Source of the DNA: Ancylothrix sp. D3o
GTDB lineage: Bacteria; Cyanobacteriota; Cyanobacteriia; Cyanobacteriales; Oscillatoriaceae
Reading direction: 5' to 3'
Assembly: GCF_025370775.1 (NCBI RefSeq)
Contig: NZ_JAMXEX010000002.1
Coordinates: 310,001-374,000 of the forward strand
Length of the DNA: 64,000 nt
Part shown: positions 989 to 44,462 of the stretch, one piece after another
Layout: each line of letters starts with the position of its first letter
Position numbering within the stretch: the first letter of the stretch is position 1
Notes under the pieces: generated by a model
The model's database searches: none
Told to the model about the DNA's origin: nothing
What the model saw: only the letters and a program-made list of their open reading frames with translations
Program-made: the position numbers and the translations under genes

Positions 989-1345
989 TTAACCGGGCTG
1001 ACCTTTTTCCAAAGCTTTTTTCACTAAGTCATCACTGACGCCTTCGGTAACGGAAGACTCCCTTTCAGTAAGATCCGCAGCCATACTGCGAAACTGTTGT
1101 GGATCACCTTTAGAAGTTGAAGAGTTGACAGTAGGCTTTATCGGTTCAGACACCCGAAACTTAGGAGCGGTTGCAGATTTGGCTTCGCTGGCGCTGGCAC
1201 CGCCGCTAAATGCTTTAGAGGCTTCATAATCAGCGGTCACATCAATCTCCGGCGCTTTTACCTCACCAGCTTGAATATTTTCTGCCAGTTCTTTTGCTTC
1301 AAAAGATTGAGATTCATCAACATTGGGCTGAATTGGTTCAGGCAT
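989..1345 (-). CDS. hypothetical small acidic protein
   Basis: A 118-residue protein rich in Ala, Glu, Ser and Pro, with no membrane segment or cysteine, and probably largely disordered. I do not recognise a family. The start is supported by AGGAG seven bases before the ATG. Two similar Pro-Ile/Lys-Pro phrases (PEPIQPNV at the start and SEPIKPTV in the middle) hint at a short internal duplication. Function unknown. Confidence 0.6.
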   Translation of the reverse strand: MPEPIQPNVDESQSFEAKELAENIQAGEVKAPEIDVTADYEASKAFSGGASASEAKSATAPKFRVSEPIKPTVNSSTSKGDPQQFRSMAADLTERESSVTEGVSDDLVKKALEKGQPG

Positions 1346-1810
1346 AACAATCTCCTATTCAAAGTTTGTTTATTCTTGACCTCGATAGTAACAAAGCGAT
1401 CCCCATTGATTTGTCCCTCTGGGGGTAGATCCCGGTCGGTGTTGAGGCGTAACGAGGGGAAGACTTTTCGAGGTGTAGTGGCGAATCTAGGGTAAACAGG
1501 CAACTTTTCCCAGGGTTGGGTAAGCAGGTTTTTGAGATACCGGCACAAACTTTTTTTTAAAATTCAAGCCTTACACCTATCGCCCCTTAAAAAGCAGAGA
1601 AATTTTCCTCTTCCTGTTTTTTTAGGAGGGGTAGGGGGGATTTTAAGGCTGAGGTTTTAACTAGCAACTTGGTTATTTCCAGGCATTTTTAGAAAGCCCA
1701 CCAGAAGCGTCTATTAATTAGGGGTGGATATTTGGGCTGATATTTGCCACGATTAAAGTTAGATTAGAGAAGTTAACGAAAAACCCTTGCATTTTATTTA
1801 AACTTGTACT
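1346..1810. other. intergenic, 465 bases
   Basis: A divergent spacer between the hypothetical gene at 989 and the TPR gene at 1811. It must hold both promoters. I see no gene, repeat or clear RNA structure. Confidence 0.4.
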
Positions 1811-2731: not shown

Positions 2732-3130
2732 TTATTCTTTCGGCAGCAAAGCCATAATTTGAGAGACAAATTCTTGATGATCAACTACTGGCTTAGAAAT
2801 ATAACCATCCGCCCCACTCTGCTCTAAAAATTGCTCACGATCACCGGCCATTGCATGAGCAGTTACTAGGATAATCGGAAGATTTGCCGTATCAGGATCA
2901 GACTTTAACATCTGGGTAATTTTAATACCATCTACCGCTCTTCCTTTGTACACACTGCGAGCCAGAGACACATCCATTAAAATAATATCCACTTCCCGAC
3001 GTTTAGCAATTTCCATTACCTCTTCAACATTTTCGGTATGTTTAACAGCTAAGCCCCCCCGCTTGGTCAATATTTTAGAAAAGACCCGCGCATTAACCTG
3101 ATCGTCCTCAACAATCAAAACCGTTTTCAT
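2732..3130 (-). CDS. single-domain response regulator (CheY/DivK-like)
   Basis: A 132-residue stand-alone receiver domain with no output domain. Asp9 and Asp10 form the acidic pocket, Asp53 (in ILMDVS) is the phosphoacceptor, the conserved Thr is in LVTAHAM, and the conserved Lys is in YISKP. The domain spans the whole protein. A ten-residue insertion after the phospho-Asp (ARSVYKGRAV) is longer than in CheY. No kinase is adjacent, so the partner is unknown. Confidence 0.9.
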   Translation of the reverse strand: MKTVLIVEDDQVNARVFSKILTKRGGLAVKHTENVEEVMEIAKRREVDIILMDVSLARSVYKGRAVDGIKITQMLKSDPDTANLPIILVTAHAMAGDREQFLEQSGADGYISKPVVDHQEFVSQIMALLPKE

Positions 3131-14335: not shown

Positions 14336-15688
14336 ATGATGCGTCAAATATTATTGAAAGTGTCCATAGGAATCCTACTAGCAATGATGGCCGCCTGCGG
14401 GGGGGACAGCAGCGCACCCCCAGCGCCGCCTCCCAATGCCGCTACACCGGCAGCCCCGGCAGCCCCGGCAGCCCCCAGCACACCTGTAGCCTCAGCCCCG
14501 GCAGCAGCCCCGGCACCAGTCCCGGCACCAGCCCCGGCGGCACCACCTCCGATCCCCCCCGGCTTAGCGCCCTCGACTGACCCAGATCGCAGAGAAGAAC
14601 AAGTCAAGACCGGGCGCACTAATCCCTTTGTACCGCCTGTGCCGGTGCCCATTCAGCAAGCTAAAACAACAACCGGAACACAGGCAGGGCCAACCCTACC
14701 GAGACTGCCATCTCAAACAGGGCAAAGCACCACCTTGGCCGGACAGCCGAGGGCAATTGGGCCAGAACTGCCCCTGCCACTAAGAACTGCCAATGCCGGC
14801 CCAGGCGGCCAGATCAGACCTACCCTTCCCAATACATCCAGGGCACAAGTGCCAAATTTGCCTGAGTTGCCAACCAAAATAGGCCCAGAACTACCCCGCG
14901 CTGTCGCCGCTCGTCCGGGGGCCCCCCGTCAAACAGCGCAAAATCCCGCCGCACCGGGCCGACAAGTGCCAAATTTGCCTGAGTTGCCAACCAGAATAGG
15001 CCCAGAATTGCCGCGCACCGTCGCGGCTGGCCCCGGCACTCCCCGTCAAACGGCCCAAAATCCAGCCGCACCGGGCCGACAAGTGCCAAATCTACCGAAT
15101 TTGCCAAACAGAATAGGCCCAGAATTGCCAAATCGTACCGCCAGAGCCAATACACCCCCGACTGCGGGTGGACGCGGGCCAACAGCACCATCTCCGGCTA
15201 CGGGTGGACGCGGGCCAACAGCACCATCTCCGGCTACGGGTGGACGCGGGCCGGTGGCAGTCGCCCCTGCTCGCCCCACACCGCCCCCGCCGCCTTCGCT
15301 ACCAAAATCAGAAAGCCGGCAGGTCCCAAATTTGCCTGAGTTGCCGGCACAGATCGGGCCAAGTGTACCACCGGCCCCACCTGTTCCAGTCGCCCCCCAA
15401 GGCCCGCCGCCGCCGCCCGATCCGACTTTGGCGAGAGCAACTGAAGTCACCGGTGTTGTCCAGGTGGGCAATGAAACGCAAATTATTGTCAAAGCACCAA
15501 ACGAAGCCACTAGCCGTTATGTGAAGGTAGGACAGCGTTTATCTAATGGGGAAATCTTAGTTAAACGGGTGATCATCAGTGCCGGAGGCGAGCCGATTGT
15601 CATTTTGGAAGAAAATGGCGTTGAGGTCAGCAAAGCCGTCGGTGAAAAACCTGCCACCGCAGAAAAACCGGCTCAGGCAAGTTCATAG
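14336..15688 (+). CDS. proline-rich repeat lipoprotein
   Basis: A 450-residue predicted lipoprotein. The signal helix ends in LAMMAAC with lipobox Cys21. Residues 25-75 are almost pure Ala/Pro. The middle carries four copies of a VPNLPELP-IGPELP unit and short GGRGP-TAPSPAT repeats. The last 80 residues form a globular, beta-rich segment beginning ATEVTGVVQVGN. The NPF-PP phrase near residue 97 and this small C-terminal domain recall PilP/GspC-type secretion and pilus proteins, but the likeness is weak. It may span the periplasm or peptidoglycan with an extended polyproline arm. Function unknown. Confidence 0.75.
   Translation: MMRQILLKVSIGILLAMMAACGGDSSAPPAPPPNAATPAAPAAPAAPSTPVASAPAAAPAPVPAPAPAAPPPIPPGLAPSTDPDRREEQVKTGRTNPFVPPVPVPIQQAKTTTGTQAGPTLPRLPSQTGQSTTLAGQPRAIGPELPLPLRTANAGPGGQIRPTLPNTSRAQVPNLPELPTKIGPELPRAVAARPGAPRQTAQNPAAPGRQVPNLPELPTRIGPELPRTVAAGPGTPRQTAQNPAAPGRQVPNLPNLPNRIGPELPNRTARANTPPTAGGRGPTAPSPATGGRGPTAPSPATGGRGPVAVAPARPTPPPPPSLPKSESRQVPNLPELPAQIGPSVPPAPPVPVAPQGPPPPPDPTLARATEVTGVVQVGNETQIIVKAPNEATSRYVKVGQRLSNGEILVKRVIISAGGEPIVILEENGVEVSKAVGEKPATAEKPAQASS
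14841..15135 (+). repeat. tandem coding repeats, VPNLPELP units
   Basis: Three imperfect repeats of roughly 120 bases inside the lipoprotein gene, each carrying the VPNLP(E/N)LP and IGPELP phrases. A fourth, diverged unit lies near 15325. Such repeats can expand or contract by slippage. Confidence 0.7.
15165..15252 (+). repeat. 36-base tandem repeat in the lipoprotein gene
   Basis: About two and a half identical copies of a 36-base unit encoding GGRGPTAPSPAT. The near identity at DNA level points to a recent duplication. Confidence 0.8.
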
Positions 15689-36045: not shown

Positions 36046-36269
36046 ATTCGTGATTATTGTTTGACAATGGACAGGGAAATTTATAGCTTTTCTCAAGTAA
36101 GTGAATTCGTCAAGAAACCCTGTTTTTCAGCCAGGGGAATGTCACAGAGATAGCTGATAGAAATAGGGATAACCGGCTAGTTTCTGCGGCGCAAGGGGGC
36201 CGGTTAAAGACTGGATTTTTCGCTGATAAATGTTGTTTTCATCTGTACCTCGCAGATGGGTTGAAGGGT

Positions 36270-36410
36270 TAATTTGTTGGCCGGCGGGCGTTCTGACTTT
36301 CTTGATGTTTGCTGCATCAAATTACAGTTGCGGGACAGTGCTGGATTTGCACCAGGCTTTCCCCGTTTCCTTTGGTGGCTGCTCCCCACCAAAACCGGCT
36401 TGTGTTTTAT
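36270..36410 (-). promoter_or_regulatory. cobalamin riboswitch
   Basis: Read on the minus strand the element contains the conserved B12-box parts: a GGGAAAGC segment, GGTGCAAATCCAGCACTG, then GTCCCGCAACTGTAA, and the 3' AAGTCAGAACGCC segment. An outer P1-like GCCGG/CCGGC pairing closes it. This is the adenosyl- or methylcobalamin aptamer seen in front of B12 synthesis and transport genes. It lies about 225 bases before the DUF1636 ATG and should lower expression of the cluster when cobalamin is plentiful. Aptamer recognition is strong; the extent of the regulated operon is inferred. Confidence 0.93.
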
Positions 36411-36458
36411 GATTCTATCTCATTGGGGTTGTTTTGGGAAGTGGGCAGTTTTTTATTT

Positions 36459-42234: not shown

Positions 42235-42816
42235 ATGAGTGTTATTCAGGCGAAACGTTTTACGCTGGATGAGTATCACAAACTCGGCGAATTGGGGTTT
42301 TTACATGAGGATGATCACATCCAATTAATTCGAGGAGAGTTGATACAAATGGCTTCAAAAGGTAGAGCGCACGAAACTTGTTTGAGGAATTTATTAAGAG
42401 AGTTGCCAAAACTGGTAGGGGATAGGGCAATACTACAATGTCAGGCTCCGATTAGTGTACCGCCTAATAGTGAACCGGAACCGGATTTTGCGATCCTTCA
42501 AAAGAGGGATGATAATTATTTATCGGCTCATCCATCGGGGAGGGATGTGTTATTGGTGATGGAGGTTTCGGATTCATCGATTGATTATGATCGGGATGTG
42601 AAACAGTCGCTTTATGCTGAGGCGAGAATTTCGGATTATTGGATTTTTAATTTGTTTGATTATCAGCTTGAGATGTACAGTGAACCTTATCAAGATAATA
42701 AAGGGAAGTTTGGGTATTTGAATAAGCGTATTGTTTTGCCACATCAAAGGGTGGCGTTGTCTTGTTTTCCAGATTTGTTGTTAGATTTAAGTCGCGTTTT
42801 TCCGCCTAGATTGTAG
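42235..42816 (+). CDS. Uma2-family (DUF820) putative endonuclease
   Basis: A 193-residue PD-(D/E)xK-type protein. The Asp of the catalytic core is in EPEPDFAIL, Glu in VMEVSDSS and Lys in DRDVKQSLYAEARI. N-terminal TLDEYHKLGELG and LIRGELIQM are typical. AAGGAGG lies at a good distance from the ATG. This family is hugely expanded in filamentous cyanobacteria, often near mobile or repeat DNA; its biological role is not settled. It directly precedes the hairpin element. Confidence 0.88.
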   Translation: MSVIQAKRFTLDEYHKLGELGFLHEDDHIQLIRGELIQMASKGRAHETCLRNLLRELPKLVGDRAILQCQAPISVPPNSEPEPDFAILQKRDDNYLSAHPSGRDVLLVMEVSDSSIDYDRDVKQSLYAEARISDYWIFNLFDYQLEMYSEPYQDNKGKFGYLNKRIVLPHQRVALSCFPDLLLDLSRVFPPRL

Positions 42817-42946
42817 GGTAAAGTGGGGCCGGTGGGCCGGTGTCAATATTTTTTTATGCAAAACCTTGACAAAACCTCAGCGGTATGCTTAGCTTAATTT
42901 AACGCAGAACAAATGACAAATTCTAAAGCGTTAAACGTCGGAGTTT

Positions 42947-43220
42947 GTCTCATGTCCTGAAATGTCAGGATACTGCGGTGCCTCTGGGTGTAATACTCGG
43001 AGGCAAAGTGAATAGGTCGTTGGAAGTGTGTTGATTTTGGCAGAAGTTTCCCTCTGTTAAATTCAATGCCTTTAAAACTACTCGTAGTGTAAAAGCTAAT
43101 TGCAGCTTAATATCGGGTAATTTCTCTCGAAATCAATGCACTTTTAACGATTTATTCACTTTGCCTTCAACTATCGTGCCCAGAAGCACCACAGTATCCT
43201 CACATTTCAGGGTTTGAGAC
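42947..43220 (+). ncRNA. 274-base near-perfect hairpin (candidate structured RNA)
   Basis: Two arms fold back around a CTCG tip at 43081-43084. The outer 92 positions (42947-43038 against 43129-43220) align without gaps: 72 Watson-Crick matches, 13 differences that would be G-U pairs on the plus-strand RNA, four A-C and three transversions. The inner arms continue with small bulges, and weaker pairing extends to about 42937 and 43231. The strong G-U bias says pairing is kept at RNA level from the plus strand, the same direction as the HNH and RNase III genes. It could be an RNase III substrate, a guide-like RNA or a fold-back element; no known RNA family was recognised. Confidence 0.75.
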
Positions 43221-43380
43221 TAAACCCGAACCAACCACCCACCGTAAAAAGTGGTTTACAGATCAACTTGCTGAAACTCATGTAGTAGTGATGAGTTTCT
43301 TAAAAGTTTTTCTATTAGCGCTTAAATATTTGATTTTGTGCTGCTTTTGCAAACATTAACTGCAAAGGAGCTTAAAGACA

Positions 43381-43617
43381 ATGAACCCTCAACAAAAACG
43401 AAGCAAAAAGCAAAAACTCATCGCTTTATTTGGCGCTAAGTGTTGGTGGTGCTGTGAATGTCTTCCAGAAAACCAGTTAACTCTTGATCATCTTATACCA
43501 AAAAGTCGTGGAGGTTCTAACTCTCCTGAAAACTTGCGGCTTGCTTGTGAAAAATGCAACAAATCTCGTGGAAACAGTCTTTATCCTCCTAACTCGAAAC
43601 AGGGAAGCTGTCTCTAG
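43381..43617 (+). CDS. small HNH endonuclease
   Basis: A 78-residue protein that is essentially one HNH domain. It has a zinc-type Cys pair CWWC near residue 22, the catalytic LTLDHLIPKSRGG with His38, the Asn in SPENLRLA and the second Cys pair CEKC. A lysine-rich N-terminus may bind nucleic acid. CAAAGGAG precedes the ATG by about ten bases. Much smaller than IscB or group I/II intron-encoded enzymes and without their other domains. It lies 160 bases after the long hairpin and 77 bases before the RNase III gene. Confidence 0.85.
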   Translation: MNPQQKRSKKQKLIALFGAKCWWCCECLPENQLTLDHLIPKSRGGSNSPENLRLACEKCNKSRGNSLYPPNSKQGSCL

Positions 43618-43694: not shown

Positions 43695-44462
43695 ATGACT
43701 ATAACCCCAGTCAACCTTGAAAACAAAATCACTTCTAAACTTCCTGACAAAATAACCGAACAAACCCAAAAACCCACAGATATGCACAAAATTTTGAATT
43801 TCCGAAATCAACAACTTTTACTCCGTGCCCTAACTCATCGCTCCTATGCCAACGAAAATAACGGCGAATGTGAACACAACGAACGCCTAGAATTTTTAGG
43901 AGATGCTTTGCTGAATTTTTTAAGCGGTGAATATCTGTACAAAAATCATCCAGAAATGGCAGAAGATCAACTCACCCGCCGGCGAGCAGCACTTGTAGAT
44001 GAAAAACAACTCGCAAGATTTGCTGAAATAATAGGTATCACCTTCAAAATGCGTCTCGCACAAGGCTTAATTAAAGAAGGAGGCTTTTCTAACCCTAATT
44101 TACTCAGCAGCACCTTTGAGGCTGTTGTTGGCGCCTACTATCTTGATAACAATTCAAACATTGAAGCAGTCCGTCCTATTGTGGAAGAGTTATTTAGTTC
44201 TGTCCCTGAAAATGTGGTAGAAACTCGCTCTATTGTAGATGCAAAAAATCGATTTCAACAATGGGTACAAGCAAACCTTGACCCAAACCCGCCTAAATAT
44301 GAGACATTCCATGCCGGCGGACTACCTCACGCCCCCGAATTTTTATCTAAGGTTTATGTGGGTGAAAAACTCTACGGAGAAGGCAAAGGACGCAGTAAAA
44401 AAGATGCCGAAAAACGCGCTGCTGAAGATGCTTTATCCAGGGTAAAAACCCACACACCTTGA
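43695..44462 (+). CDS. rnc: ribonuclease III
   Basis: A 255-residue double-strand-specific endoribonuclease. The catalytic domain has ALTHRSYANE, the signature NERLEFLGDALLNF and the second acidic cluster in STFEAVVGAYYLDNN. The C-terminal dsRNA-binding domain (about 185-252) includes GEGKGRSKKDAEKRAAEDAL. The ATG at 43695 gives a 29-residue extension; ATG 43782 (MHKILNFRNQQL) matches the usual start better, and neither has a clear ribosome-binding site. RNase III cuts rRNA precursors, sRNA duplexes and often its own leader. The long hairpin upstream is a plausible substrate. Confidence 0.92.
   Translation: MTITPVNLENKITSKLPDKITEQTQKPTDMHKILNFRNQQLLLRALTHRSYANENNGECEHNERLEFLGDALLNFLSGEYLYKNHPEMAEDQLTRRRAALVDEKQLARFAEIIGITFKMRLAQGLIKEGGFSNPNLLSSTFEAVVGAYYLDNNSNIEAVRPIVEELFSSVPENVVETRSIVDAKNRFQQWVQANLDPNPPKYETFHAGGLPHAPEFLSKVYVGEKLYGEGKGRSKKDAEKRAAEDALSRVKTHTP

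Follow-up and report, generated by a model that had tools for sequence, protein, structure and literature searches.

A long hairpin in the window, i.e. the whole stretch of 64,000 nucleotides analyzed here, belongs to a family of conserved double-stranded RNA structures with strong covariation and lies between a promoter-like TTGACA box and a small HNH nuclease gene, which is followed by the RNase III gene rnc, all on the plus strand. The structure, the wobble bias of the sense strand, the compensatory changes, the position, the promoter-like box, and the retention of the leader with rnc despite a changing accessory gene are observations. RNase III is an enzyme that cuts double-stranded RNA. 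Because a long duplex kept by compensation leads the gene for a double-stranded RNA endonuclease, an RNase III autoregulatory site is the best reading: the element is probably a 5′ leader acting in cis, and RNase III would regulate its own operon by binding and cleaving this leader; transcription, binding, cleavage, and feedback are inferred. The leader family is old and apparently undescribed.

Hairpin and operon in the window

The following features were located in the window:

42866-42871 (+): promoter-like −35 box TTGACA
42889-42894 (+): TTAGCT, weak −10 candidate, 17 nt beyond TTGACA
42938-43229 (+): full leader hairpin, 292 nt, 124 predicted pairs by folding (locus label L003:1058-1349)
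42947-42952 (+): 5′ end box GTCTCA, identical or as a compensated variant in related leaders
43215-43220 (+): 3′ end box TGAGAC, within GTTTGAGAC, identical or as a compensated variant in related leaders
43273-43299 (+): short hairpin of 9 bp with a T-rich tail behind it, located after the long stem and before the HNH gene; possible attenuator
43381-43617 (+): small HNH nuclease-like gene, 78 aa (PF14279 5e-13; PF01844 1e-11)
43695-44462 (+): RNase III gene rnc, 255 aa (TIGR02191 219 bits, cut-off 166; PF14622, PF00636, PF00035)

The hairpin had originally been predicted with a length of 274 bases. Folding supported its existence but not this length, as the stem actually reaches from 42938 to 43229. 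Gap-free alignment of the outer 92 bases of the arms yielded 72 Watson-Crick pairs, 13 G-U, 4 A-C, and 3 other combinations, exactly the predicted counts for the first three classes. The argument drawn from 13 versus 4 is weak evidence when taken alone (two-sided binomial 0.049) and becomes strong only together with the related hairpins. The proposed folding of both strands resulted in −145.7 kcal/mol (z −17.6) for plus-strand RNA, with 0 of 200 dinucleotide shuffles being equally stable, and −132.4 kcal/mol (z −17.9) for the minus strand, again without an equally stable shuffle. Among 1062 segments (280 nt, step 60) scanned over the 64 kb, the element gave the strongest fold (−132.1 at 42961), while the runner-up outside the element reached −114.1 at 15181. 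The element is single-copy and occurs at one place in its own genome. This genome encodes reaction-centre proteins of photosystems I and II (PF00223, PF00124), which only Synechococcus elongatus had among 14 named control genomes, and is therefore taken to be cyanobacterial. In line with the original statement that no known family was matched, Rfam 15 returned nothing on the hairpin at gathering score; the only match in the window was a cobalamin riboswitch elsewhere (36266-36414, minus strand, 51.9 bits vs. a gathering score of 31.5).

Since a promoter-like box is present upstream, the hairpin is inferred to be part of the 5′ UTR; transcript data were not available. TTGAC[AG] is common upstream of related hairpins and was found within 110 nt in 35 of 37 cases, 57-86 nt ahead of the end box, L095 and L049 being the two loci without it. 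Related loci also have short hairpins before the gene, some with T-rich tails, which are inconsistent in sequence, place, and strength. Among NCBIfam profiles, the 78-aa HNH protein is closest to that of the IscB HNH part, with a score far under the cut-off. The rnc product comprises both the catalytic and the double-stranded RNA-binding domain. While the prediction of plus-strand pairing is supported, the membership of the hairpin in the adjacent HNH-RNase III operon and in a larger family had not been recognized. Directly upstream of the leader, a gene for a Uma2-family putative nuclease is located (42235-42816, plus strand).

Related leaders and sub-types

Relatives of the hairpin were recovered only via neighboring genes and not by DNA similarity; a DNA-level search of 60 genomes with the window element found only the element itself, without a match in the 59 others. 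An HNH gene adjoining the RNase III gene recurs across the same order, and 17 of 25 such loci have a hairpin with paired GTCTCA...TGAGAC or GTCGCA...TGCGAC ends, the latter variant being present in L004 and L070. One of the 8 loci without a paired-end hairpin, L072, is truncated at the HNH gene. Among the loci sampled from the class, 17 of 23 had a paired-end hairpin, the sequence of L104 being incomplete. The spans between the boxes range from 133 to 274 nt, and the stems comprise approximately 60-124 predicted pairs across the leaders.

The leader interiors split into several sub-types that differ in the stem interior, while the end box is common to diverged ones. Family 1, the sub-type found through the class, has ends approximately 154 nt apart, located approximately 100 nt before the gene, and a conserved box around GAATAT upstream. 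The window leader resembles family 1 in its ends, promoter-like box, position, and genes, and its membership in the larger family rests on these common features; its interior is unalignable with family 1. The window stem is too diverged for an end-to-end alignment with the covariance model described below, and the best partial match reached 26.9 bits with filters off.

No paired end boxes were found upstream of a second group of HNH genes (approximately 50% identity; e.g. L012, L013, L079, and L082), whose loci contain no rnc. Also, comparison of the HNH protein with named genomes yielded three loci, of which the only one inspected (L063, Calothrix) has neither rnc nor paired end boxes. At four loci (L009, L010, L068, and L071), a second hairpin starting at about GTTGTTCTCAT and ending with TTGAGC is located between the leader and the HNH gene.

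Evidence for selection on RNA pairing

For 26 family-1 sequences, RNAalifold predicted a structure of 53 pairs, of which 26 show compensatory changes. In this structure 94.8% of the cells pair, compared with 29-39% when the partners were slid by 1-3 columns. The 26 pairs with changes on both sides compare with 6-11 in the slid structures and 14.8 after shuffling, and this number was reached in 0 of 500 shuffles, which were not corrected for relatedness.

The wobble pairs agree with this. G-U exceeded A-C in 35 of 37 related hairpins (329:119), with one tie and one reversed case (L010); here, boundaries were taken from the end boxes only and the alignment was blind to wobble. Counting each sub-type once (six representatives) resulted in 54:21 (p 1.8e-4). 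A further count of 149:50 (15 of 15 hairpins) was not relied on, because its boundaries came from sense-strand folding. The excess of G-U over A-C points to selection on the strand reading into the operon. The original claim that pairing is maintained as plus-strand RNA thus holds for both the wobble bias and the compensatory changes, and homologues lacking compensatory change, which would have refuted it, were not what was found.

Retention of the leader with rnc and exchange of the accessory gene

A covariance model was built from the 26 family-1 sequences and applied to two samples of 388 genomes with partial overlap. Filters were strict and 7 candidates were scored in each genome, so that additional or weak copies may have been missed. 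Matches were obtained for 10 genomes in the order and 32 in the class, i.e. 42 distinct genomes with one place each. These include all 26 training members, while the genome of the window is absent. RNase III follows the leader on the same strand in 40 of the 42 genomes, and in 15 of 16 outside the training set. The gene directly after the leader encodes HNH in 33 genomes, NYN in five (G424, G437, G567, G607, and G613), an unassigned ORF in one (G446), and a transposase ORF in one (G676); two genomes have no accessory gene (G029 and G246). Since the leader occurs with RNase III in 40 of 42 genomes while the gene between them varies, the leader stays with rnc and the accessory gene is exchangeable. 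The two genomes without rnc in the locus are G357, in which leader and HNH gene are kept, and G676, the sole exception among the 16 non-training matches. The well-conserved leader of locus L126 is immediately followed by a DDE transposase ORF, and neither rnc nor HNH was found there. In L044, the reported match of the model and rnc are on opposite strands, and the segment separating NYN from rnc contains a palindromic repeat of the GTAGGGGCGATTCGC type that folds into a second, likewise strong hairpin.

On a tree with 83 rows of RNase III, 20 changes are needed to explain the distribution of four accessory labels, one of which is 'none'; several forks of the tree are weak. For these labels, the L134 ORF was set as HEPN, and L066 and L069 were set as HEPN and NYN, respectively, despite an HNH gene in front. 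The L134 ORF was taken to be HEPN-like by eye from an R-x4-H motif; Pfam gave no match for it, and it is therefore reported as unassigned. In L066, RNase III carries an N-terminal Swt1-like HEPN domain, and in L069 an N-terminal NYN domain, both behind an HNH gene.

As controls, rnc loci in 60 relatives were analyzed, with 1225-2300 nt of upstream DNA covered for 54 operon-type rnc loci and 1724-1856 nt for 20 loci of a diverged RNase III paralogue, hand-picked from more than 50. An ends-type hairpin (GTCTCA/GTCGCA) was present at 12 of 23 operon-type loci with an accessory gene, compared with 2 of 31 without (Fisher p 2.9e-4, uncorrected for relatedness), and at 0 of the 20 paralogue loci. 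The remaining 29 of 31 loci without accessory gene have no leader, so the leader is dispensable for RNase III as such. The table of 54 loci omits fragmentary rnc matches in G033 and G054 as well as weak partial paralogues; G050, with HNH fused to a double-stranded RNA-binding domain, is counted among the 23 loci with accessory gene, and the HNH match in G012 scores only 47 bits and is possibly unrelated. NYN-rnc operons with an ends-type hairpin are L181, L182, L183, L184, and L192. The 11 of 23 accessory loci without such a hairpin include all three rows of HEPN-type RNase III and the HNH-dsRBD row L008. In L185 and L186 (NYN-rnc; −76.7 and −135.1) and in L166 (HEPN type; −72.1), the stems are strong but differ in their ends, and these loci were not counted as members. 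Stems below −70 kcal/mol without end boxes were also found at 2 of the 20 paralogue controls (L200, −90.6; L203, −81.8). In L008, HNH and a double-stranded RNA-binding domain are encoded in one frame of 167 aa (1213-1713, minus strand), from which the RNase III catalytic domain is absent.

Proposed mechanism and alternative explanations

For autoregulation by RNase III, a promoter just upstream would drive transcription of the leader of the HNH-rnc operon, and the RNA would form an extended duplex whose ends are held together by the GUCUCA/UGAGAC stem; transcription is inferred here. RNase III made from the operon would bind and cut the leader duplex, which may lower stability or translation of the operon mRNA, the sign of this feedback also being inferred. 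Thereby, free RNase III activity could set the level of RNase III and of the accessory nuclease in the variable slot. A role of the end stem in regulation is likewise an inference.

It remains possible, if unlikely, that the leader regulates the operon via another sensor, either a protein bound to the end stem and its internal loop or the short hairpin acting as an attenuator, with RNase III being regulated and not the regulator. Diverged sub-types with a common end box, the box around GAATAT in family 1, and the short hairpins before the gene, some with T-rich tails, would fit such a sensor. However, the invariance of the end boxes in the 26 alignment rows proves nothing, because these rows were chosen by exact end boxes. 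In the 16 model matches outside the training set, the end stem is paired in all 16, with GTCTCA/TGAGAC in 7, GTCTTA/TAAGAC in 8, and ATCTCA/TGAGAT in 1. The compensated boxes in 9 of 16 indicate that pairing is favored over a fixed motif, which slightly lowers the case for another sensor. Also, variable sequence and length with kept pairing suits an enzyme acting on double-stranded RNA, and the short hairpins are inconsistent among loci.

We consider it quite improbable that the hairpin is a double-stranded RNA precursor diced by RNase III into small RNAs acting elsewhere, alone or with the accessory nuclease in an RNA-interference-like manner; a long duplex of up to 124 pairs beside RNase III and nuclease genes would suit this, but the frequent exchange of the accessory gene and the different stem interiors of the sub-types do not. 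A DNA-level element (a MITE, another palindromic repeat, or a recent inverted duplication), suggested by inverted ends resembling a terminal inverted repeat, is already largely refuted and hardly tenable, as dispersed copies were not met in its own genome, each of the 42 genomes has one place among the 7 candidates scored, nearly always before rnc, and compensatory changes and strand-biased wobble are present.

Beyond autoregulation, the leader might be the activity sensor of a guard module, in which the accessory slot holds swappable effectors under one conserved RNA sensor. If RNase III were titrated or inhibited, e.g. by phage double-stranded RNA or an inhibitor, the hairpin would stay uncut and the operon would release the exchangeable effector nuclease (HNH, NYN, or HEPN type). 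This is speculative, and we rate it as doubtful.

Comparison with known systems

HEARO/IscB omega RNA is a structured RNA beside an HNH-bearing gene, and the 78-aa HNH protein of the window resembles the HNH part of IscB. In contrast to omega RNA, the leader has no Rfam match, and it is also found ahead of NYN-rnc and of rnc without an accessory gene.

Autoregulation by RNase III is already known from other systems. In Escherichia coli, a structure within the 5′ UTR of rnc is cleaved by RNase III itself, and other targets can titrate the enzyme away (PMC5371410); cleavage of its own leader is likewise stated in PMC8708148. Like the leader described here, this element, rncO, is double-stranded and precedes rnc within the 5′ UTR of its operon (PMC5371410, PMC8708148). 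A location in the 5′ region of the operon on the same strand as rnc, as expected for an rncO-like element, is given in the window and in 40 of 42 genomes, with transcription as 5′ UTR being inferred, and a conserved double-stranded RNA structure is given, too. Unlike rncO, the cyanobacterial leader is one long stem with a common end box and precedes a variable accessory nuclease gene, and its cleavage is only inferred. In Streptomyces, RNase III autoregulates its own operon; for the absB (rnc) operon of Streptomyces coelicolor, RNase III acts on its own polycistronic transcript, as inferred here, whereas a comparable leader family is not mentioned in the part of that source available (PMC10126417). 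HEPN-RNase III fusions ('two-headed RNases') have already been noted in Lyngbya, where RNase III is likewise joined to another predicted ribonuclease, L066 being such a fusion beside HNH; the available part of that report mentions no leader RNA, HNH partner, or partner exchange (PMC3710099).

The leader family itself seems undescribed. It adds an apparently new structured RNA family that shows strong covariation and is associated with a well-known enzyme. The operon is modular: RNase III and the leader are retained, whereas the 83-row tree implies approximately 20 exchanges or losses of the partner gene. Thereby, the little-studied control of cyanobacterial RNase III becomes directly testable, and the question arises why RNase III pairs with other nucleases.

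Literature and database searches

In open-licence PMC literature, no description of the leader RNA or of an HNH/NYN-rnc operon was found. In the main text of PMC2864571, as far as available, the terms RNase III, ribonuclease, and HNH do not occur. According to a review on cyanobacteria, each genome carries between one and three genes for RNase III, and no such leader was seen in the accessible part of this review (PMC10989914). Scanning IMG/VR for a single exact pattern taken from the 5′ end of family 1 gave 0 matches.

With the PADLOC 2023 defence models, none of five proteins was matched over most of the model length, and RNase III, the L134 ORF, and the L066 fusion had no match at all. HNH matched 31 families, the best 25 of the 31 with at most 32 bits and over a short part only (PtuB, PDC-M01B, Cas9 HNH), and one NYN protein had an NYN match of 24 bits.

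The leaders of 15 related loci had no Rfam match at gathering score. Sub-threshold matches at these loci were to microRNA precursors and a Wolbachia sRNA, far below the gathering score and some of them on the stems. In L004, a c-di-AMP riboswitch (2849-3064, 64.5 bits) was detected outside the leader.
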